IMG/VR virus record: IMGVR_UViG_3300025816_000049
Span: 1-31,107 of that record
Length of the DNA stretch: 31,107 bases
Origin: a virus
Strand: one strand, 5' to 3'
Shown here in pieces: positions 3,100 through 19,752 of this stretch (position 1 is the first letter of the stretch; the number at the start of each line of letters is the position of its first letter). The notes below the pieces were generated by a model that was not told the origin of the DNA, made no database searches, and saw nothing but the letters and a program-made list of their open reading frames with translations. The position numbers and the translations under genes were made by a program.

Positions 3100-3120
3100 C
3101 ATAAAGGTGAAATAAGTAAG

Positions 3121-3309
3121 ATGGCTAAATTTGGTCGATTTGATCCACGTAATAAGAAACGTGACAGAAATAAAAATATGTCTCAAAGCAAAGATAATAG
3201 AATTAGAGATGTTGAAGAAAGAAAAACTGGTTTTAAAATACGAGGCCATAATATAGATTATGCAATGTATGAACGTCAAGATGAATTTAGTGATGATAAT
3301 GAAAGCTAA
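3121..3309 (+). CDS. small basic hypothetical protein, 62 aa
   Basis: The start is ATG at 3121 after AAAGGTGAAATAAGTAAG. The first 40 residues are very rich in Lys, Arg, Asn and Asp and likely disordered; the tail is acidic (DEFSDDNES). Not recognised. It lies between the endolysin and a HAD phosphatase in the same orientation with short spacers. Confidence 0.7.
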   Translation: MAKFGRFDPRNKKRDRNKNMSQSKDNRIRDVEERKTGFKIRGHNIDYAMYERQDEFSDDNES

Positions 3310-3312
3310 CTT

Positions 3313-3897
3313 ATGAATAAAATTATACTAACAGATTGTGATGGCGTTCTCCTAGATTGGGAGAGCGCTTTTACTGATTGGATGAGTCAACGAGGATTTA
3401 AAGTTGATGAAAACAATCGAAGAGAATACAATATGGGAAAACGCTATGGTATAAGCTCCGAAGAAAAAGATCAAATAGTACGAGCTTTTAACGAATCAGC
3501 ATGGATGAAATATTTAAATCCACTGCGTGATGCTGTATATTATGTAGATCTTTTACATCGTAAACATGGTTATACCTTTCATATGTGTACATCACTTACT
3601 ACAGATGAATATGCTCAAAAGTTAAGAATAGAAAATATTGAAAGATTATTTGGTAAGACTGCATTTACTAAATATATTTTTTGTGATACCGGTGCTGATA
3701 AAGATGAAGCACTTGAGCCATATAGAGATAGTGGATATCTTTGGGTAGAAGATAAAGTTGAAAATGCTGAACTTGGATTGCGAATAGGTTTAGATCCTGT
3801 TTTAATATCACATCCATGGAATAATAATTATGATAATGATTGTATTCCTAAATATTTTAGTTGGTGTAGTCTATATGAAGAGGAAATATTTGCATGA
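3313..3897 (+). CDS. HAD-superfamily phosphatase (nucleotidase-like)
   Basis: This 194-aa protein has HAD motif I DCDGVLLDW (catalytic D8 and D10), a motif II-like segment (MCTSLTTDEY) and motif III/IV-like VEDKVENAELG. The pattern resembles 5'(3')-deoxyribonucleotidases and the phosphatase domain of polynucleotide kinases; no kinase domain is present. A role in nucleotide salvage or DNA/RNA 3'-end repair is inference. It overlaps the next gene (ATGA). Confidence 0.82.
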   Translation: MNKIILTDCDGVLLDWESAFTDWMSQRGFKVDENNRREYNMGKRYGISSEEKDQIVRAFNESAWMKYLNPLRDAVYYVDLLHRKHGYTFHMCTSLTTDEYAQKLRIENIERLFGKTAFTKYIFCDTGADKDEALEPYRDSGYLWVEDKVENAELGLRIGLDPVLISHPWNNNYDNDCIPKYFSWCSLYEEEIFA

Positions 3898-4091
3898 GTA
3901 TCGCAGAAATTTTAAGTCTTCGTTTTCAATTTGAAGAAATTATTCAAAACTTTGTTATTCCTGATAACAGAAAAGCAAGTATTTTAGAAAATATCATATG
4001 GTTTAAAAAATATGGCAATAGAAAAAATAGATTTAGAACTGGTTATGATCAAGCTATGGAAATTGCTAATAAAATTTTAAAGAACATTTAA
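3894..4091 (+). CDS. small hypothetical protein, 65 aa
   Basis: ATG at 3894 overlaps the HAD gene stop. The protein is helical and basic at the C-terminus (RKNRFRTGYDQAMEIANKIL). Not recognised. It ends 10 nt before the first base-paired segment of the permuted tmRNA gene, so the tmRNA could be transcribed by readthrough from this operon. Confidence 0.7.
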   Translation: MSIAEILSLRFQFEEIIQNFVIPDNRKASILENIIWFKKYGNRKNRFRTGYDQAMEIANKILKNI

Positions 4092-4100
4092 CTTATATAT

Positions 4101-4167
4101 ACTATGTAGTTGATGATATTAACTAGATGCATACTGGACTCGGGGGCGGTACCCGACAGCTCCACCA
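4101..4167 (+). ncRNA. ssrA: permuted tmRNA: acceptor (3') piece
   Basis: The segment ends in CAGCTCC + ACCA (4157-4167), the alanine-type tmRNA acceptor end; CAGCTCC pairs with GGGGCTG at 4308-4314, which lies downstream rather than upstream. A five-pair T stem (TCGGG 4140-4144 with CCCGA 4152-4156) encloses a 7-nt loop GGCGGTA that lacks the usual TTC. Upstream bases 4102-4107 and 4118-4122 can pair with 4342-4347 and 4332-4336 of the coding piece. The 5' boundary is approximate. The order acceptor-spacer-coding piece is the circularly permuted, two-RNA tmRNA layout. Confidence 0.87.
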
Positions 4168-4182
4168 TAAGGACACTAAATA

Positions 4183-4320
4183 ATGGACTTTCATTGGATA
4201 AGTTGGACTAAAGGAGAACCCTTTCAATGGGGAGATTTTAGATACAATAACGGTAATCCATATAAAAATTACCGTATTGGTCCGTTACTTATTCGTGTCT
4301 TTTTGAGGGGGCTGAAATAG
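4183..4320 (+). CDS. 45-aa ORF inside the tmRNA intervening segment
   Basis: ATG at 4183 follows AAGGA (4169-4173) with about 9 nt spacing, and the frame runs 45 codons to TAG at 4318-4320. The product is Trp/Tyr/Phe-rich with a basic hydrophobic end (IGPLLIRVFLRGLK), not an obvious random translation. Nearly all of the 140-nt segment between the two tmRNA pieces is this ORF, and its last 13 nt are the first bases of the tmRNA coding piece. Cleavage to form the tmRNA 5' end would therefore cut this message. Not recognised. Confidence 0.5.
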   Translation: MDFHWISWTKGEPFQWGDFRYNNGNPYKNYRIGPLLIRVFLRGLK

Positions 4321-4478
4321 GATCGACAGGTGTTGACGGAAACATGGAGACTATCCCGATCTAAGCTGGGTTAACGCGAAGAACTTTACAAGTGCAAACA
4401 ATAATTGTGCTCCATCTGGTTACGCCCTAGCGGCCTAACACAGGGGGTTGGCGACTTACCTAGCAACAGAAAAGTCGT
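4308..4478 (+). ncRNA. ssrA: permuted tmRNA: coding (tag) piece
   Basis: It begins GGGGCTG followed by AAATAGGATCGACAGG, the conserved tmRNA 5' tRNA-like half. The tag frame starts at GCA 4394 and ends TAA 4436-4438, encoding ANNNCAPSGYALAA, whose YALAA end is the classic ClpXP degron. The stop lies in a hairpin region (CCCT/AGGG), as in known tmRNAs. The piece closes with a 6-bp hairpin (CGACTT 4452-4457, AAGTCG 4472-4477). Function by family knowledge: rescue of stalled ribosomes and tagging of the nascent chain, with SmpB. The 3' end is approximate. Confidence 0.92.
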
Positions 4479-4488
4479 ACTTATTTTT
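4451..4488 (+). terminator. hairpin plus T-rich run after tmRNA
   Basis: CGACTT/AAGTCG stem with a 14-nt loop is followed by TTATTTTT. It may terminate the tmRNA transcript or form the 3' end of the coding piece. The late promoter begins two bases later. Confidence 0.45.
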
Positions 4489-4489
4489 G

Positions 4490-4497
4490 TATAAATA
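4490..4497 (+). promoter_or_regulatory. T4-type late promoter
   Basis: TATAAATA, the gp55-type late promoter core, lies 25 bp before the lipoprotein start (4522) with AGGAG between. It separates the tmRNA from the late block downstream. Confidence 0.8.
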
Positions 4498-4521
4498 GTA
4501 TCGATAGACAGGAGTTTAACT

Positions 4522-5103
4522 ATGAGTAAACAACTATTGATATTGATATTATTAACACTAGCAGCATGCACATCAAAGCCTATTGTTTTGTATGCGCAAA
4601 CTGTAATAGACTCCACAACTGATAGTAAAAGCAAAACAGACTCTAAGGGTAGAACAATTGTAATTTCTCCTCCACCAAGTGCTATTTCTCCAAGTGCTGG
4701 AGGTAGTTCTCAAGATTTATGTACTGTTGGCATATCAGGTGCAGTACAAACACAAATTTTAGGTATATCAACTGGAGAAACTGTTACCGATCAGAATTGT
4801 GAAAGACTTAAAATATCAAAAACATTATATGACTTTGGAATGAAAGTTGCGGCAGTATCGGTCTTATGTCAAGACCGTAGAGTATACGATGCTATGGGAA
4901 TGGCAGGAACACCTTGTCCAATTTATGGTAAAATTGGCGAAGACGCAAAGGTTGAATGGAAAAAGCCATCAGGCAAAAAGAAAATTCCTGCAATAATTAT
5001 TCCGGAGACAAAAGCAGATGTTCAGAAAAGGCAATGGGATACTGGCAAAAGTGCTATTGGCGGTGCTCTTCTTATGCTTCTTTTGCTTGCCGCTGCCGGC
5101 TAG
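4522..5103 (+). CDS. lipoprotein, conserved in marine T4-like phages
   Basis: This 193-aa protein has a short signal peptide with lipobox LAAC (residues 13-16), predicting lipid attachment in the cell envelope. A Ser/Thr/Lys linker and a Pro/Ser stretch (ISPPPSAISPS) follow, then a conserved-looking domain (LCTVGISGAVQTQILGI ... NCERLKISKTLYDFGMKVAAVSVLCQD) with paired cysteines. The end is hydrophobic (GGALLMLLLLAAAG). From memory similar proteins recur in marine T4-like phages next to tail or envelope-interaction genes; function unknown. It has its own late promoter. Confidence 0.82.
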   Translation: MSKQLLILILLTLAACTSKPIVLYAQTVIDSTTDSKSKTDSKGRTIVISPPPSAISPSAGGSSQDLCTVGISGAVQTQILGISTGETVTDQNCERLKISKTLYDFGMKVAAVSVLCQDRRVYDAMGMAGTPCPIYGKIGEDAKVEWKKPSGKKKIPAIIIPETKADVQKRQWDTGKSAIGGALLMLLLLAAAG

Positions 5104-10546: not shown

Positions 10547-10660
10547 ATGGAAGAGGAAGACGAAGGCTTTTATATTGATGACGACGGCGTAGCAGTTATT
10601 CTTGAACCTATCCATTTTAAATATCCATATGGTAGAGATGACGACGATGAAGACGTTTAA
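10547..10660 (+). CDS. mini-protein sharing the DEGFYIDD motif, 37 aa
   Basis: ATG at 10547 gives MEEEDEGFYIDDDGVAVI. The same motif appears at residues 10-23 of the next protein (KEDEGFYIDDKGVAVF), so this looks like a duplicated N-terminal cassette or a remnant of a longer gene. It overlaps the next gene by 14 nt and ends in an acidic run. Confidence 0.55.
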   Translation: MEEEDEGFYIDDDGVAVILEPIHFKYPYGRDDDDEDV

Positions 10661-11567
10661 ACAGTATTCAAAAGAAGACGAAGGCTTTTATATTGATGAT
10701 AAAGGCGTTGCTGTATTCACTGATATTTTAGGACACGGTGATAAACCTAAAAGTATCAATAAACCTAAAAAAGTTGTTAAAGAAAATGCTTCTGCTGTCA
10801 AACATATAGCAAAAGAAAAAAGCTGGTTGAATTGGCGTCATGAATCTATTCACGACGGAGAAGAAGTAGATAATGATGAACATGTTGAAGAAAAGTCTCA
10901 TCAATTATTGCAGCACCATCAAAAGCATCAAGAGAAAAATCCTTTAAGTGACGATCAAAAGAAAGCGATCAAAGGATATACATTAGATTCAGAAAGATTT
11001 AATAAACATTTAATCGAAAAGCACACATTAAAGTCTCGCAGAAAAGTTCCAGACCACCATTGGGATGGCATGAATGGAATTCCTGATGACAAGGAAAGAG
11101 CTAGGCATGATGTAATGCATAAACATTTGAGTGATGCTTATCATCCTATGGGAGGACATTTCAAGCTATGGGCTGGAGTATCTTCTAGAGTTAGCAAAGC
11201 AGTAAAAAAATCGAAAAATGGTATAATTCATCCAGGTGGAGGTCACATATCTACTACATATGATAAAGATGTGGCACAGACTTTTGCAGCTAAAAAGACT
11301 AAGGGGCCTGATGGGTTAAAACAACCGTATGGTAGACATCACTATATGTGTATACATGCGAAACCAAAAGACAATGTTCTTAGTACTGAGCATAACAGTA
11401 AATGGCAATCGGAGAGAGAAGTTTTAGTTAAAGATAAATTAAAACATATCGGTACTACAAAGCACTACGTTAAACATGCTTTTAAAAAAGCTGATGGCAG
11501 CTATGACGAACACACTACAGAACATCACGTTGATCATTTTGAAATTCATCACGACGGGAGTAAATAA
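10647..11567 (+). CDS. ADP-ribosyltransferase-like protein, probable injected internal protein
   Basis: This 306-aa protein starts MKTFKQYSKEDEGFYIDD, recalling the capsid-targeting leader of T4 internal proteins (MKTYQEF...). Residues about 105-265 follow the R-S-E ADP-ribosyltransferase plan: helix GYTLDSERFNKHL, strand KLWAGVS where the usual Arg is replaced, ISTT (201-204), and SEREVLV with the E-x-E pair E256/E258. It is very rich in His and Lys. Such enzymes modify host proteins right after injection (T4 Alt role). I chose ATG 10647 rather than upstream ATGs because of the leader match. Confidence 0.72.
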   Translation: MKTFKQYSKEDEGFYIDDKGVAVFTDILGHGDKPKSINKPKKVVKENASAVKHIAKEKSWLNWRHESIHDGEEVDNDEHVEEKSHQLLQHHQKHQEKNPLSDDQKKAIKGYTLDSERFNKHLIEKHTLKSRRKVPDHHWDGMNGIPDDKERARHDVMHKHLSDAYHPMGGHFKLWAGVSSRVSKAVKKSKNGIIHPGGGHISTTYDKDVAQTFAAKKTKGPDGLKQPYGRHHYMCIHAKPKDNVLSTEHNSKWQSEREVLVKDKLKHIGTTKHYVKHAFKKADGSYDEHTTEHHVDHFEIHHDGSK

Positions 11568-12583
11568 TGGAAAGATTTGGATCATTCATAAAAGATGAAG
11601 GTTTTTATATGAGCAATGGTGTGGTTACTCTCAGCAAAGCTATAGGTGACAAAACTCCTAGAACAAAAAGAATTGAAAGAGGTATATTTGAAGGATTTGA
11701 TACTACCGGTTTTAAGCAGGCAAAAAAAGAAAAACGGGTCGATCATAAACATCACGAGGCTCGTGATGACTTACATGATAATAAAAAAAGAACACATATT
11801 GATGATGTTCAGATGAATAAGAATATCTTTGGTGAAACTGGTCATGAACTCAGCACATCACATCGTGGATCTGATATAGAAGAAGTAGGTAGTTTATCAA
11901 GTAAACTTGAACAAAAAATGACACCAGCACAACATAAAGCTTTTCACCATTTTACGGCTGGAAAATCTGACACAGCTGGTGATGGTAAAAAATGGGCATC
12001 TAGTCATATAGCTCAGCATTTTATAGCTATGCACAAACATAAGACAGAAAATAAAAAGTTAAGTGAGTACCATCCGCACTCAGTTGTTGGTCAAGATAAA
12101 GACACTGCAGAACATCTTAAAACCGCAGCTAAACCTCTTGGCCATAATGTACATCTTTATTCTGGTGTTCATCCTTCATTTGTACAAGCCATTAAACATG
12201 CAAAAAAACATACCGATGGCGTTGTTCATTCTCCAGCTCATATTTCTACTACTCATGATGTGCACACCGCAGCTGGATTTGCAATTCATTCCGGCCACGC
12301 GAATGAGCATGTTAGACCTTTAAATAAAAATACAGATACTCAATATGTAGGTAAAACAACTAAACATATGATTCACGTTCATGCTAAAGCTAGTGATAAA
12401 GGTATTCATATGAGTGGTGTAGAAGGTAACAAACATGCTGCTGAAGCAGAAACTGTACTTCCGCCTGCAACACAGTTAAAATATTCGCATACTACACATC
12501 ATTATCACACAATGCCAGATCAGGGCGATGACGATCATCATAGAATAGACGTACATCATTGTACGATCCATAAACAGGACTAA
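11567..12583 (+). CDS. ADP-ribosyltransferase-like protein 2, probable injected internal protein
   Basis: This 338-aa paralogue-like neighbour starts MERFGSFIKDEGFYMSNGVV, sharing the DEGFY leader. The catalytic region shows LYSG (197-200; the family Arg position is Ser), HISTTHD (226-231) followed by AAGFA, and AAEAETVLPPATQ with E293-x-E295, a clear ARTT-loop ending. It is His-rich throughout. It overlaps the first ART gene stop by one base and ends the late block. The target is unknown; host RNA polymerase or ribosome-associated proteins are precedents in T4. Confidence 0.75.
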   Translation: MERFGSFIKDEGFYMSNGVVTLSKAIGDKTPRTKRIERGIFEGFDTTGFKQAKKEKRVDHKHHEARDDLHDNKKRTHIDDVQMNKNIFGETGHELSTSHRGSDIEEVGSLSSKLEQKMTPAQHKAFHHFTAGKSDTAGDGKKWASSHIAQHFIAMHKHKTENKKLSEYHPHSVVGQDKDTAEHLKTAAKPLGHNVHLYSGVHPSFVQAIKHAKKHTDGVVHSPAHISTTHDVHTAAGFAIHSGHANEHVRPLNKNTDTQYVGKTTKHMIHVHAKASDKGIHMSGVEGNKHAAEAETVLPPATQLKYSHTTHHYHTMPDQGDDDHHRIDVHHCTIHKQD

Positions 12584-14517: not shown

Positions 14518-15693
14518 TTGTATTGTAGAATGCCCCACGCAGGTTTAACACTTCAACCTAACGGTGATATTGGTCTTTGTTGCGCGGCTTGGCAAAAAAT
14601 GGAATTTGGTCATATATCAAAAATCGATAGCATTAAAGAAATATGGGAAAATGATCCTAAGCTTTTAATGTTAAAGGAAGATGAACCGTATTTAGTACAG
14701 CAAGCGTGTGGTACATGTTTAAAAAAATCTAAACAAAATCTTGATTGGCAATGGGGACTTTGGAATATTCCAAAGAACGGTTCTTACAGAAAAGAAGTAG
14801 GTGAGTTAGACGGTAAGCTTAAGTTTCTAGAATTTACAACATCTAATATTTGTAATCAAACATGTATTACTTGTTCAAGCTATTTTAGTTCAAAATGGAA
14901 ATCTGTTGAACAACAGATTCTGCGTGAAGGTATTCCACTTTATGATTGGAAAACTCATGAACATGGCTTCGGCGCTTATGGTTATGATCATTATAGAATG
15001 ACTGATTCTGACATCGATAAAATTATAGAAATTCTACCAGACCTTAGAATAATTTCTATAAAAGGTGGAGAACCTTTTGCTGATAAAAATAATTTTAGAA
15101 TTTTAGAAGAGTTAAAAAAAGTAAATCCTTCTTGCATTATTAAAGTCAATAGTAATTTTTCAAAAATTCCAAAAAAATTTGTTGATGTTTTAAAAAACTT
15201 TGAATGCCAAATTACAGTGTCAACTGACGGAATTAATAAATCATACGAATATATAAGATCTACTAAGTTTAAAAATACTATTGATAACATGAAAATGTGG
15301 AAAGAAGAAATTGGAGGAAAAATAGCAATAGCTTCAATAATTAGTATTTACAATATGTACGATATAGAAGAAACATGTGATTATTGGGAAAAAAGTCCTT
15401 ATGTTGATTATTGTAATATTAGAGGATTTGTGTTTAATCCAGACTTTGTTTCACCATTATCTTTATTAAAAGAAGAGCAGCTTGATGAATGGATATATAA
15501 TACTAATCAATATATTTCTAATATGCAATCACGTAAAATTCAATACAACTTATTAAAACATGTTAATCATAAAAATATTAATGAATTAGAAAAAAATAAA
15601 GTAGTATCAAAATTTCATTCATATACTAAATTTATGAATAAATATAGAAAAATTAATATATATGATATACATCCACAATTAAAAGATATATAA
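14518..15693 (+). CDS. radical SAM protein with twitch domain
   Basis: This 391-aa protein starts at TTG 14518 after GAAAGGATATACAA. The N-terminal part (CRMPHAGLTLQPNGDIGLCC ... ACGTCLKK, C3, C21/C22, C64, C67) resembles a SPASM/twitch auxiliary cluster region placed before the core. The radical SAM cluster motif is CNQTCITC (CX3CX2C, about residues 113-120), then ISIKGGEPFADKN (the GGEP motif) and STDG. It would cleave S-adenosylmethionine to start radical chemistry. The substrate is unknown; peptide modification is the commonest role of twitch/SPASM enzymes. Confidence 0.85.
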   Translation: MYCRMPHAGLTLQPNGDIGLCCAAWQKMEFGHISKIDSIKEIWENDPKLLMLKEDEPYLVQQACGTCLKKSKQNLDWQWGLWNIPKNGSYRKEVGELDGKLKFLEFTTSNICNQTCITCSSYFSSKWKSVEQQILREGIPLYDWKTHEHGFGAYGYDHYRMTDSDIDKIIEILPDLRIISIKGGEPFADKNNFRILEELKKVNPSCIIKVNSNFSKIPKKFVDVLKNFECQITVSTDGINKSYEYIRSTKFKNTIDNMKMWKEEIGGKIAIASIISIYNMYDIEETCDYWEKSPYVDYCNIRGFVFNPDFVSPLSLLKEEQLDEWIYNTNQYISNMQSRKIQYNLLKHVNHKNINELEKNKVVSKFHSYTKFMNKYRKINIYDIHPQLKDI

Positions 15694-16487: not shown

Positions 16488-16689
16488 AAGAATAAAATTA
16501 TTTATTGCTTGGTATAAACAATTAAGGGAAAGGAGACATGAATTTCCTTTCCCTTGGTACTATCACACTTCATATAATATTTGGAATTGTTTTCGTTGGG
16601 CTGTATATAATTCAGCTAATAATGATATTAATGGAAATTACTTGTATAAATATTCCCAATGTGGCAAATATAAGAAAAGGATAAGATAG
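16480..16689 (+). CDS. small basic hypothetical protein, 69 aa
   Basis: TTG at 16480, overlapping the preceding gene, is the best available start. The protein is rich in Arg, Trp and Tyr (WYKQLRERRHEFPFPWYYHT). Not recognised. A TATAAATA sequence (16645-16652) lies inside its 3' end and appears to serve the next gene. Confidence 0.6.
   Translation: MNRRIKLFIAWYKQLRERRHEFPFPWYYHTSYNIWNCFRWAVYNSANNDINGNYLYKYSQCGKYKKRIR
16645..16652 (+). promoter_or_regulatory. T4-type late promoter before the synthetase-like gene
   Basis: TATAAATA lies 37 bp upstream of GTG 16689, inside the previous gene. The exact match and its position make a late promoter for the synthetase-tRNA pair plausible. Confidence 0.6.
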
Positions 16690-17513
16690 TGACACAGTTG
16701 ATTGAACCAAAAAAATTTACGAAAGCAGCTGACCTTTTAAGGTCATTTTTTTTAAATAGAGGCTTTCAAGAAGTACATACCCAAAATCGTTTAAGTATTT
16801 TAGCGGCGTGCGAAGATCCAGAAAATGTAGCAACATATAATTATGAAGGGCAAATATGGCCTCTTCCTCAAACTGGCCAGATGTGGTTGGAATATGAATT
16901 ATTAACTCGCCCCTCTTCGAAGGGGTTTTTTTGTATCTCAACTTCATACAGACAAGAACCAAATGCAATTCCTGGAAGACACGATACAATTTTTCCAATG
17001 TTTGAATTTGAAATGCCAGGAGACTTTGAAGATCTTAAAGTAATGGAAAGACAACTTTGTGCTTATATGGGATTTGATGATTTGACAGAAAAAACTTATG
17101 CTGAGTGGCAGGAAAATTATTCATTACCTTTAGATAAAGAGCTTACAGCTGATCATGAACTAGCAATGTACTATGAATATAAAAGCTGTATGATCACAGA
17201 TTTTCCAGAAATAACTAGTCCATTTTGGAATATGTCAAGGAATGAAGACGGAACAAGCAAAAAAATAGATGTCATTCTTGGTGGCATGGAAACAATTGGC
17301 AGCGCTGAAAGATCTACAGATGTTAAGCAAATGAGAGATACATTTCATACTATTTCAAACGGCGAATATGCCGGTCTTATTAACAAGTTATTTGGTAAAG
17401 ATCGTGTTGAAGCTGAACTTGAAAAGTTTCTTGAATTTGATTTCTTTCCAAGAGTTGGTGGTGGAATAGGTATGACCCGCATGATCAGTGCGCTCGATAC
17501 TCTTAAAAAATAA
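16689..17513 (+). CDS. free-standing class IIb aminoacyl-tRNA synthetase core (AsnRS/AspRS/asparagine-synthetase-A-like)
   Basis: This 274-aa protein starts at GTG 16689 (AAAGGATAAGATA upstream) and shows all three class II motifs: motif 1 LLRSFFLNRGFQEVHT (about 16-31), motif 2 TSYRQEP...GRHDTIFPMFEFE (85-108; R88, E90, R97, H98) and motif 3 VGGGIGMTRMISAL (256-269; R264). QTGQMWLEYELL and GGMETIGSAERSTD match the Asp/Asn/Lys subgroup. The N-terminal OB-fold anticodon-binding domain is absent. It could charge a tRNA or, like archaeal AsnRS-derived AsnA, make asparagine from aspartate and ammonia. The Asn-anticodon tRNA 6 nt downstream favours a link to asparagine either way. Confidence 0.85.
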   Translation: MTQLIEPKKFTKAADLLRSFFLNRGFQEVHTQNRLSILAACEDPENVATYNYEGQIWPLPQTGQMWLEYELLTRPSSKGFFCISTSYRQEPNAIPGRHDTIFPMFEFEMPGDFEDLKVMERQLCAYMGFDDLTEKTYAEWQENYSLPLDKELTADHELAMYYEYKSCMITDFPEITSPFWNMSRNEDGTSKKIDVILGGMETIGSAERSTDVKQMRDTFHTISNGEYAGLINKLFGKDRVEAELEKFLEFDFFPRVGGGIGMTRMISALDTLKK

Positions 17514-17519
17514 GAATAA

Positions 17520-17628
17520 TCCGAGGTGGTGGAATGGTAGACACGCCGTACTGTTTATACGGTGAATCAAATGTACCCGCAAAAGTATATTTATATTCGT
17601 GAAGGTTCGAATCCTTCCCTCGGAGCCA
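17520..17628 (+). tRNA. atypical tRNA, anticodon GUU (Asn) on a class II Leu-like scaffold
   Basis: A 109-nt tRNA with encoded CCA. Acceptor TCCGAGG/CCTCGGA with discriminator G, D stem GTG/CAC with a Leu-type loop, anticodon stem CCGTA/TACGG around CTGTTTA (anticodon GTT 17553-17555; position 37 is U), T stem GAAGG/CCTTC with TTCGAAT. The variable region is 38 nt (17563-17600) and folds into a 12-bp arm (GAAT/ATTC, then AAATGTAC/GTATATTT). Bacterial tRNA-Asn normally has a 5-nt variable loop. The U1-A72 pair, G73 and GUU are Asn-type; the body is Leu-type. Confidence 0.88.
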
Positions 17629-18984: not shown

Positions 18985-19752
18985 ATGGCACAACCAATAA
19001 ATCAATTAAGTTTTAAAGCCAGAAGCCTCTTGTTTGCTCGACTATCAGCAATTGCGTACTCCGACCTTAAAGAAGCTAAGGCCGCTGCCCGCAGACTCGA
19101 ATTTAATACAATTGAATTTTATGATGTCAATGGCGCACAGGCATACAGATTTATGAATAAGTATGATTGTATCATCGCGTGTCGAGGAACTCAACCAAAC
19201 GAATTCAATGACATTAAAGCTGATTTACAATCTATTCCAGTAATGGCTGAAACTGTCTCACGAGTTCATAAAGGGTTTAAGGCCGAGGTCGACGAACTTT
19301 GGCCCGCGATATGTGAAGATCTAAATAGAAAACAAAATAATAGCAAAACATTATGGTTTTGTGGTCACTCGCTTGGAGCTGGAATGGCCACTATTATGTC
19401 GTCAAGATGTTTACATAATTTATTTCTAAAAGATCCGGTTGAGTTATATACATTCGGTTCACCTCGCGTAGGATTTAAAAAATATTGTAATTCTCTTGGT
19501 GTAATTCATCATAGGTTTGTAAATAATAACGATGTTGTTACACGTGTGCCTTTGGTAATGATGGGCTATAGACATCATGGAACAGAGCATTATATGAATT
19601 CTAATGGGGAATTTGTAAATGTATCTGGTTTTAAAAGAATTTGGGATAGATTAAAAGGCATGGCTGCCGGTATTATAAAATTAAAAATAGATAATTTTAG
19701 CGATCATAGTATGGATTGTTATATAAAAAACATAAAAAATATGAAAGAGTAG
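18985..19752 (+). CDS. class 3 lipase-like alpha/beta hydrolase
   Basis: This 255-aa protein has the lipase_3 plan: CRGTQ oxyanion segment (66-70), nucleophile elbow GHSLG (S129), YTFGSPRVG, the acid NNNDVVTRVP (D183) and the base in DHSMDCY (H241). It would hydrolyse acylglycerols or phospholipids. No signal peptide is visible, so action on the inner membrane from inside, or release at lysis, is inferred. It has its own late promoter and sits after the injected-nuclease block. Confidence 0.88.
   Translation: MAQPINQLSFKARSLLFARLSAIAYSDLKEAKAAARRLEFNTIEFYDVNGAQAYRFMNKYDCIIACRGTQPNEFNDIKADLQSIPVMAETVSRVHKGFKAEVDELWPAICEDLNRKQNNSKTLWFCGHSLGAGMATIMSSRCLHNLFLKDPVELYTFGSPRVGFKKYCNSLGVIHHRFVNNNDVVTRVPLVMMGYRHHGTEHYMNSNGEFVNVSGFKRIWDRLKGMAAGIIKLKIDNFSDHSMDCYIKNIKNMKE

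Follow-up and report, generated by a model that had tools for sequence, protein, structure and literature searches.

A phage two-piece tmRNA gene whose spacer probably houses a small protein gene

Introduction

What lies between the two parts of a two-piece tmRNA gene, and can it be more than waste? So far, the two-piece form has passed for an RNA gene whose spacer is simply discarded. The locus analyzed here, from a marine virus of bacteria whose IMG/VR record is linear and 31,107 bases long (all of which we call the window), raises the question anew, as its spacer contains an open reading frame that begins shortly after the encoded CCA end and runs on into the second part of the tmRNA. We asked whether this frame is a gene, how it relates to the RNA around it, and how far the arrangement extends among other phages.

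Results

A permuted tmRNA gene in a phage genome

Two Rfam covariance models match the locus over their full length, RF04321 (tmRNA_permuted) at 4106–4438 with 109.1 bits (cut-off 47, E = 1.1e-20) and RF01849 (alpha_tmRNA) at 4071–4481 with 100.1 bits (cut-off 50, E = 1.9e-26), and ARAGORN, which is independent of Rfam, reports a permuted tmRNA* at 4074–4529 with the tag ANNNCAPSGYALAA. The acceptor stem pairs, the CCA-bearing acceptor part lies 5′ of the mRNA-like part, and the tag frame has a stop codon and a degron-like ALAA end (Table 1). The window also encodes PhoH, an endolysin and single-strand DNA-binding proteins of phage families, and phage proteins on both flanks of the tmRNA rule out host contamination. 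The locus is a real two-piece tmRNA gene. A preliminary description of this DNA had proposed as much, and its phage-borne circularly permuted tmRNA, its reversed part order (CCA upstream of GGGGCTG) and its ALAA-ending tag are all borne out. By its suggestion, such a phage copy may keep ribosomes free or add a phage tag. Because phage Melnitz has already been published with a two-piece tmRNA (PMC9004378), the tmRNA is not new as a kind. Its 14-residue tag is unlike all 32 tags read from Pelagibacteraceae-family loci, among which ANDKFALAA and ANESYALAA together make up 21.

Table 1. Features of the tmRNA locus, in positions of the window
Feature	Position	Strand	Basis
T4-late-promoter-like TATATATA, differing from TATAAATA at one base, 46 nt ahead of the T arm	4094..4101	+	Motif comparison
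tmRNA 3′ (acceptor) part with T arm and encoded CCA (4165–4167)	4106..4167	+	RF04321, RF01849, ARAGORN
Intervening sequence, 140 nt, not in mature tmRNA	4168..4307	+	Between CCA and acceptor 5′ strand
Putative ribosome-binding site AAGGA of nested gene, within helix strand, just after CCA	4169..4173	+	Sequence
Predicted helix 5′ strand AAGGACAC, extends acceptor stem, pairs with 4295–4302	4169..4176	+	Pairing, covariation
Nested gene, 45 codons, ATG 4183, stop TAG 4318–4320 inside mature tmRNA	4183..4320	+	Open frame
Predicted helix 3′ strand GTGTCTTT, doubles as nested-gene codons	4295..4302	+	Pairing, covariation
tmRNA 5′ (mRNA-like) part; acceptor 5′ strand GGGGCTG at 4308–4314	4308..4481	+	RF01849 to 4481
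Tag frame ANNNCAPSGYALAA including stop	4394..4438	+	ARAGORN

A probable small protein gene nested in the spacer

The stronger finding is the gene nested in the spacer, an open frame that was absent from the preliminary description and whose ATG follows an AAGGA motif by nine nucleotides. Taken singly, this 45-codon frame could be chance. Its predicted product is rich in aromatic residues, and a search of this and nine other nested proteins against Pfam and PHROGs gave nothing above the Pfam cut-offs and a best PHROG match at E = 0.0018; seven further nested proteins likewise had no Pfam match above cut-off and weak PHROG matches. Among 50,697 phage records, the window protein and its relatives (family A) returned four weak mycobacteriophage matches, with E values from 0.4 to 2, that we judge irrelevant, and a second nested family (family C) and the L044, L042 and L007 frames returned no match. 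The predicted fold of family A is poor (mean pLDDT 68). A third nested family (family B) is modelled as a beta-beta-alpha-beta fold (pLDDT 92) with four cysteines that are invariant across 40 sequences, and its model matched nothing in a viral structure library at E = 0.001 or better. As to function, we can only guess that the nested cargo performs varied small tasks late in infection.

Phage spacers are often long and the long ones hold open frames

The RF04321 match spans 333 nt in the window. We sampled 79 genomes from the family of one uncultured Pelagibacteraceae genome; in 62 of them the match spans 178–191 nt, and in the other 17 the model had no match. A bacterial genome scan gave at least 118 loci and from these at least 101 distinct permuted tmRNAs, 99 with a measurable spacer, and a viral scan gave at least 120 loci and at least 62 distinct permuted tmRNAs. 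Among the matches listed, the bacterial spacers had a median of 28 nt (n at least 99), with one of at least 100 nt (L344), and the viral spacers a median of 77 nt (n at least 62), with 19 of at least 100 nt. The difference is significant by a rank test on the matches listed (p = 2e-8), which were collected with different search patterns; neither sample is random.

Length and open frames go together. From the viral loci listed we extracted by pattern 75 distinct spacers, and a frame covering at least 70% of the spacer was present in 16/16 of those of at least 150 nt, 9/17 of 100–149 nt, 8/24 of 50–99 nt and 9/18 of the shorter ones; as such frames are common below 100 nt (17/42), coverage alone means little in short spacers. 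Compared with dinucleotide shuffles, 13 of the 16 longest spacers reached p < 0.05, and the pooled test gave p = 2e-14 for the 33 spacers of at least 100 nt, a value made too small by the kinship of some of the 33, versus p = 0.997 for the 42 shorter spacers, whose frames were no longer than in shuffles. The contrast between long and short spacers holds all the same.

The pattern of substitution points the same way. In nested copies, the median pairwise dN/dS was 0.176 for family A (19 distinct coding sequences, 158 pairs), 0.179 for family B (22 sequences, 214 pairs) and 0.124 for family C (38 sequences, 418 pairs). Pairwise substitutions at codon positions 1, 2 and 3, counted with the last eight codons excluded, numbered 197, 248 and 464 in family A, 2401, 1320 and 3680 in family B, and 1643, 839 and 3081 in family C, so that the third position is the most substituted in all three families alike. 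By these sequence measures, the nested genes of three unrelated families evolve under purifying selection as proteins while they reside inside the spacer.

We also made a forward test on the premise that a binding site directly after the CCA marks a nested gene, in which case fresh spacers with this mark should hold a frame. Scanning for CCA followed by TAAGGA yielded at least 111 new loci, which reduced to 64 distinct spacers with both tmRNA halves; 13 matches had no recognized second half and the remainder were repeat spacers. Among the matches listed, a frame running from the binding site over at least 70% of the spacer was found in 53/64, versus 14/43 control spacers of at least 60 nt from the first viral scan that lack an initial binding site and were read at the same start offsets (Fisher p = 1.8e-7). 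The forward-test frames of at least 20 residues fall into 17 blastp groups, 16 of them with a shown member of 70% coverage, and the longest example encodes 118 residues (L818). Another grouping, of the L397, L096, L023 and L084 frames, arises in part from tmRNA sequence that is translated at the frame ends. All 31 nested loci that were given to Rfam passed the RF04321 cut-off. We rejected a chance open frame as the explanation on the grounds of length-dependent coverage, dN/dS, third-position excess and the forward test, and RNA structure alone as the cause of conservation on the grounds that synonymous sites vary and that the helix described below covers only the spacer ends.

A predicted helix joins the spacer ends and in the window takes in the binding site

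The two ends of the spacer are predicted to pair with each other. Among the viral matches listed, 53/55 spacers of at least 60 nt can form an unbroken helix of at least 8 bp, compared with 27% when partners are swapped; spacer positions 2–9 are paired in 52 to 54 of the 55, and most of these positions show several pair types. Covariation thus supports a helix that would continue the acceptor stem into the spacer, a region that the consensus lines of both RF04321 and RF01849 give as unpaired. The helix is found even where the spacer has no long frame, so it did not originate for the sake of the cargo.

In the window the AAGGA motif lies inside this helix, and in the folded precursor its five bases have pairing probabilities of 0.73–1.0, whereas folding a transcript stopped at 4260 leaves the last two binding-site bases free. 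The start codon is mostly paired both in the full precursor and in the transcript stopped at 4260, so the predicted folding around it does not favour easy translation and neither proves nor excludes early loading of ribosomes. A binding site falls in the first 12 nt of 10/24 spacers with a frame of at least 35 codons versus 1/31 without (p = 5e-4), and 17/24 versus 8/31 have a binding-site-like sequence with the usual spacing ahead of their longest frame (p = 0.001); 7/24 long frames have no binding site recognized by pattern, and 14/24 have none in the helix strand. Several unrelated nested proteins share a C-terminal ending, V, I or M followed by S-L-stop, since the 3′ strand of the helix supplies their final codons. 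The stop codon itself lies inside the mature tmRNA in 10/24 long frames of the first sample and in 17 of the 19 distinct nested family A sequences, and within the spacer in 14/24 long frames.

A late-promoter-like motif marks the upstream boundary

Just upstream of the window tmRNA lies a close match to TATAAATA, which we take to be the T4 late promoter motif. Among the matches listed, the exact motif occurs within 112 nt before the T arm in 43/74 viral versus 0/42 bacterial loci, and with up to one mismatch it occurs 44–53 nt before the T arm in 52/76 viral versus 0/42 bacterial loci, the bacterial loci not being matched for base composition. Its position is nearly constant, with 39 of the 43 exact occurrences in the viral loci listed at 45–52 nt before the T arm. 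A promoter scan of 3700–4700 found 5 promoter-like sites versus 4.2 expected, with no excess near the spacer, and a terminator scan of the same interval found a single terminator-like site versus 0.4 expected; this site lies within the spacer and is on the minus strand.

Three related contigs (L123, L124 and L125), which share 86–91% identity with the window over the upstream genes, have no tmRNA here and carry another gene instead. They match the window up to about 4099, and the tmRNA-bearing L054 matches it from about 4093 on. As this junction of similarity, at about 4093–4099, coincides with the promoter-like motif, the module seems to have been exchanged at the promoter.

The same small genes occur inside and beside tmRNA genes

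Searches of viral contigs that used nested proteins as queries found 51 loci encoding family A relatives, 43 of them nested. Two of the others are cut by contig ends (L416 and L448), L444 shows the acceptor half only, and in L400 the gene lies directly upstream of a tmRNA that has a different spacer. Four family A genes lie elsewhere: L418 and L439 keep a piece of the tmRNA 5′ end 3′ of the gene, L423 keeps spacer sequence 5′ of the gene, and L446 has no such remnant of a tmRNA or spacer beside it. From the remnants at L418, L439 and L423, the genes at these loci appear to have left a spacer.

In the same kind of search, we kept 80 of 191 relatives of family C, of which 70 are nested, 2 are cut by contig ends and 8 are classed as separate, and 80 of 180 relatives of family B, of which 32 are nested and 48 are not, the latter comprising 20 beside tRNA genes, 3 beside a tmRNA and 25 elsewhere; another search pattern placed a fourth family B locus (L591) beside a tmRNA. 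Melnitz carries an annotated family B homologue (QZI94817.1, 67% identity) directly upstream of its tmRNA. Other phages have homologues of the L042, L007 and L099 frames upstream of a tmRNA, and homologues of the L038 frame upstream or downstream of one. It thus seems that small genes from a pool pass back and forth between the tmRNA flanks and the spacer.

Many family C spacers (L449–L524; for example L452 at about 2460–2520) contain a second short frame after the helix binding site AAAGGAG, which overlaps the start of the main gene and encodes a recurring GDSDEE-like peptide. This short frame is perhaps a leader that couples translation.

Other features of the window and related contigs

At 16689–17513 the window encodes a 274-residue class II aminoacyl-tRNA synthetase core (PF00152) with weak PDB matches to AspRS and LysRS, followed within a few bases by a tRNA-like gene (17520–17628, 48.8 bits in Rfam) that default ARAGORN misses. 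This gene has the anticodon loop CTGTTTA (GUU) and about 38 nt between the anticodon arm and the T arm; with introns allowed, ARAGORN reads it instead as Leu(CAA) with a 14-nt intron. The synthetase and tRNA recur together at 56 of 81 synthetase loci (the window and 80 of 595 relatives), with a variable region of 13–39 nt, and in all but one of the cases measured the tRNA begins 5–12 nt after the synthetase stop. In the window the two possibly form a phage-specific pair, for which we found nothing relevant in the literature searched.

A glutamine riboswitch (RF01739) lies near phage tmRNAs in two contigs, upstream in L053 (2150–2198) and downstream in L397, which is Melnitz (3107–3155); in the window no RF01739 match reaches the cut-off. 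Another viral contig with a nested-gene tmRNA has a COG2908 RNA motif (RF02939, 70 bits; L792, 2484–2528). The window further encodes a radical SAM protein with a SPASM domain (14518–15693), a small Fe-S biosynthesis-like protein nearby (PF01521, 13608–13916) and a class 3 lipase-like protein (PF01764, 77 bits; 18985–19752). Two adjoining proteins of 321 and 338 residues (10602–12583) are alike by eye; the first has a sub-threshold match to the ADP-ribosyltransferase family PF03496 (15.9 versus 23.4 bits) and the second has none.

Discussion

The sequences show a tmRNA, a nested gene with selection at the protein level, a helix that joins the spacer ends and holds a binding site, and a stop codon inside the tmRNA. 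From these elements we infer that the precursor is translated, that the helix, once complete, shuts the binding site, and that each transcript is used as mRNA or as tmRNA. We consider it likely that this is a phage two-piece tmRNA whose spacer houses a real protein gene, so that one transcript would serve as mRNA or as tmRNA; the same degree of confidence extends, as part of the explanation as a whole, to the spacer as a cargo site whose small genes differ from phage to phage and in some cases also sit beside the tmRNA. In a phage with T4-like genes, a single transcript, probably made from the late-type promoter just upstream, would hold the ribosome-binding site and then the 45-codon gene between the CCA end of the tmRNA upstream and its 5′ end downstream. 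Ribosomes would read the nested gene from the precursor while it is still uncut, most likely at a time when transcription has yet to reach the distal helix strand. Folding of the precursor would then shut the binding site, processing enzymes would excise the spacer and the tmRNA would mature, so that each transcript would be spent either as a messenger or as a tmRNA.

A less committal reading accepts the gene and drops the either-or: the nested gene would be passive cargo whose message is either a transcript of its own or the spacer after excision, with the helix serving tmRNA processing only. The occurrence of the helix with and without cargo agrees with this, as do the 14/24 long frames that end inside the spacer and family C, in which the main start codon, about 41 nt from the beginning of the spacer, has a binding site of its own that is not part of the helix strand. 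We nevertheless think it unlikely. The binding site of the window forms part of the helix and the nested frame there ends within the mature tmRNA, so the excised spacer would have no stop codon, and the promoter scan gives a separate transcript no promoter-like excess near the spacer.

That the maturing cut would leave the spacer of the window without a stop also invites a bolder reading, a self-limiting switch in which maturation of the tmRNA turns off its own cargo gene. Ribosomes on the uncut precursor would end the nested protein at the stop codon lent by the tmRNA. The cut at G4308 that matures the tmRNA, which is presumably made by RNase P, would strip that stop away and strand a ribosome on the spacer as on a non-stop message, and the stranded ribosome would be rescued, and its product tagged, by the very tmRNA just made. 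Frames that end in the last spacer bases would escape such a switch, which therefore cannot be general, and we regard it as a rather improbable elaboration.

It is very improbable that the tmRNA is a decayed or non-functional copy and that the protein gene is what is kept. Loci such as L444, where the acceptor half and the gene were seen and the second half was not, L418 and L439 with their short pieces of the tmRNA 5′ end, and L423 with spacer sequence before the gene would suit such decay. In the window, however, both covariance models match at full length and the acceptor stem, CCA and ALAA-ending tag are present, and the RF04321 cut-off was passed by every one of the 31 nested loci. The least probable account, an ordinary phage two-piece tmRNA whose spacer frame is a chance or RNA-structure by-product, can draw on RNA constraint at both spacer ends, the absence of a frame excess in short spacers and the little that a lone 45-codon frame proves, and is contradicted by dN/dS values of 0.12–0.18 in three families, a third-position excess even without the last eight codons, homologues encoded outside any tmRNA and the forward test (53/64 versus 14/43).

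If the spacer does code, as we favour, one precursor would be both messenger and ribosome-rescue RNA, with translation tied directly to RNA processing. This would explain why phage spacers are often long, and would make them a place to seek unannotated small phage proteins, of which the Melnitz frame that lies under an SsrA annotation is an example. The spacer would also be an exchange hot spot, with phages moving small genes into and out of an RNA gene.

Relation to known systems

The closest published relative is the Methylophilales phage Melnitz (MZ577097.1), which like the window has a phage-borne permuted tmRNA of the alphaproteobacterial type; the excerpts of its report that we draw on count 53 two-piece tmRNA structures among the phage genomes of 2021 and a permuted tmRNA in 17/47 Melnitz-like contigs (PMC9004378). 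Its spacer is also long, at 142 nt, with an open frame that starts at an ATG 19 nt in. The protein differs from that of the window, in 4/4 records nothing but the SsrA annotation covers the frame, and the same excerpts do not mention it (PMC9004378). Unlike the nested copies, the family B gene of Melnitz is separate. A T4-late-like motif stands just upstream of the tmRNA here too, as TATAAATA in Melnitz, which suggests late transcription, in contrast to the early transcription proposed in the excerpted report (PMC9004378).

The alphaproteobacterial two-piece tmRNAs described by RF01849 and RF04321 share with the window the order of the parts, the acceptor domain and the tag frame, and differ in their spacer, which in bacteria has a median of 28 nt (n at least 99) with one of at least 100 nt. 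A second survey lists 79 phage tmRNA sequences and, in the portion available to us, describes a tmRNA with a group I intron and homing endonuclease in 36/883 cases and two permuted genes with a tRNA gene and a repeat in their spacers, a protein gene not being mentioned there (PMC11915505). The group I intron tmRNAs resemble the window in that a protein gene lies within the tmRNA gene, in a part that is removed; they carry it in a self-splicing intron in the T loop, as that portion of the survey describes (PMC11915505), whereas the window carries its cargo in the spacer of a permuted gene. We ruled out a group I intron in the window tmRNA, as its T arm is unbroken in the RF04321 alignment. None of 17 nested proteins scanned had a Pfam match above cut-off that would indicate an endonuclease in the insert; one has a sub-threshold NUMOD1 match (15.6 versus 22.8 bits). 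The open-licence tmRNA literature searched, as far as its accessible text goes, does not describe a protein gene in a tmRNA spacer, although a report elsewhere is possible. Relative to the phage two-piece tmRNAs in those published sources, as excerpted, what is new here is the protein gene nested in the tmRNA spacer.
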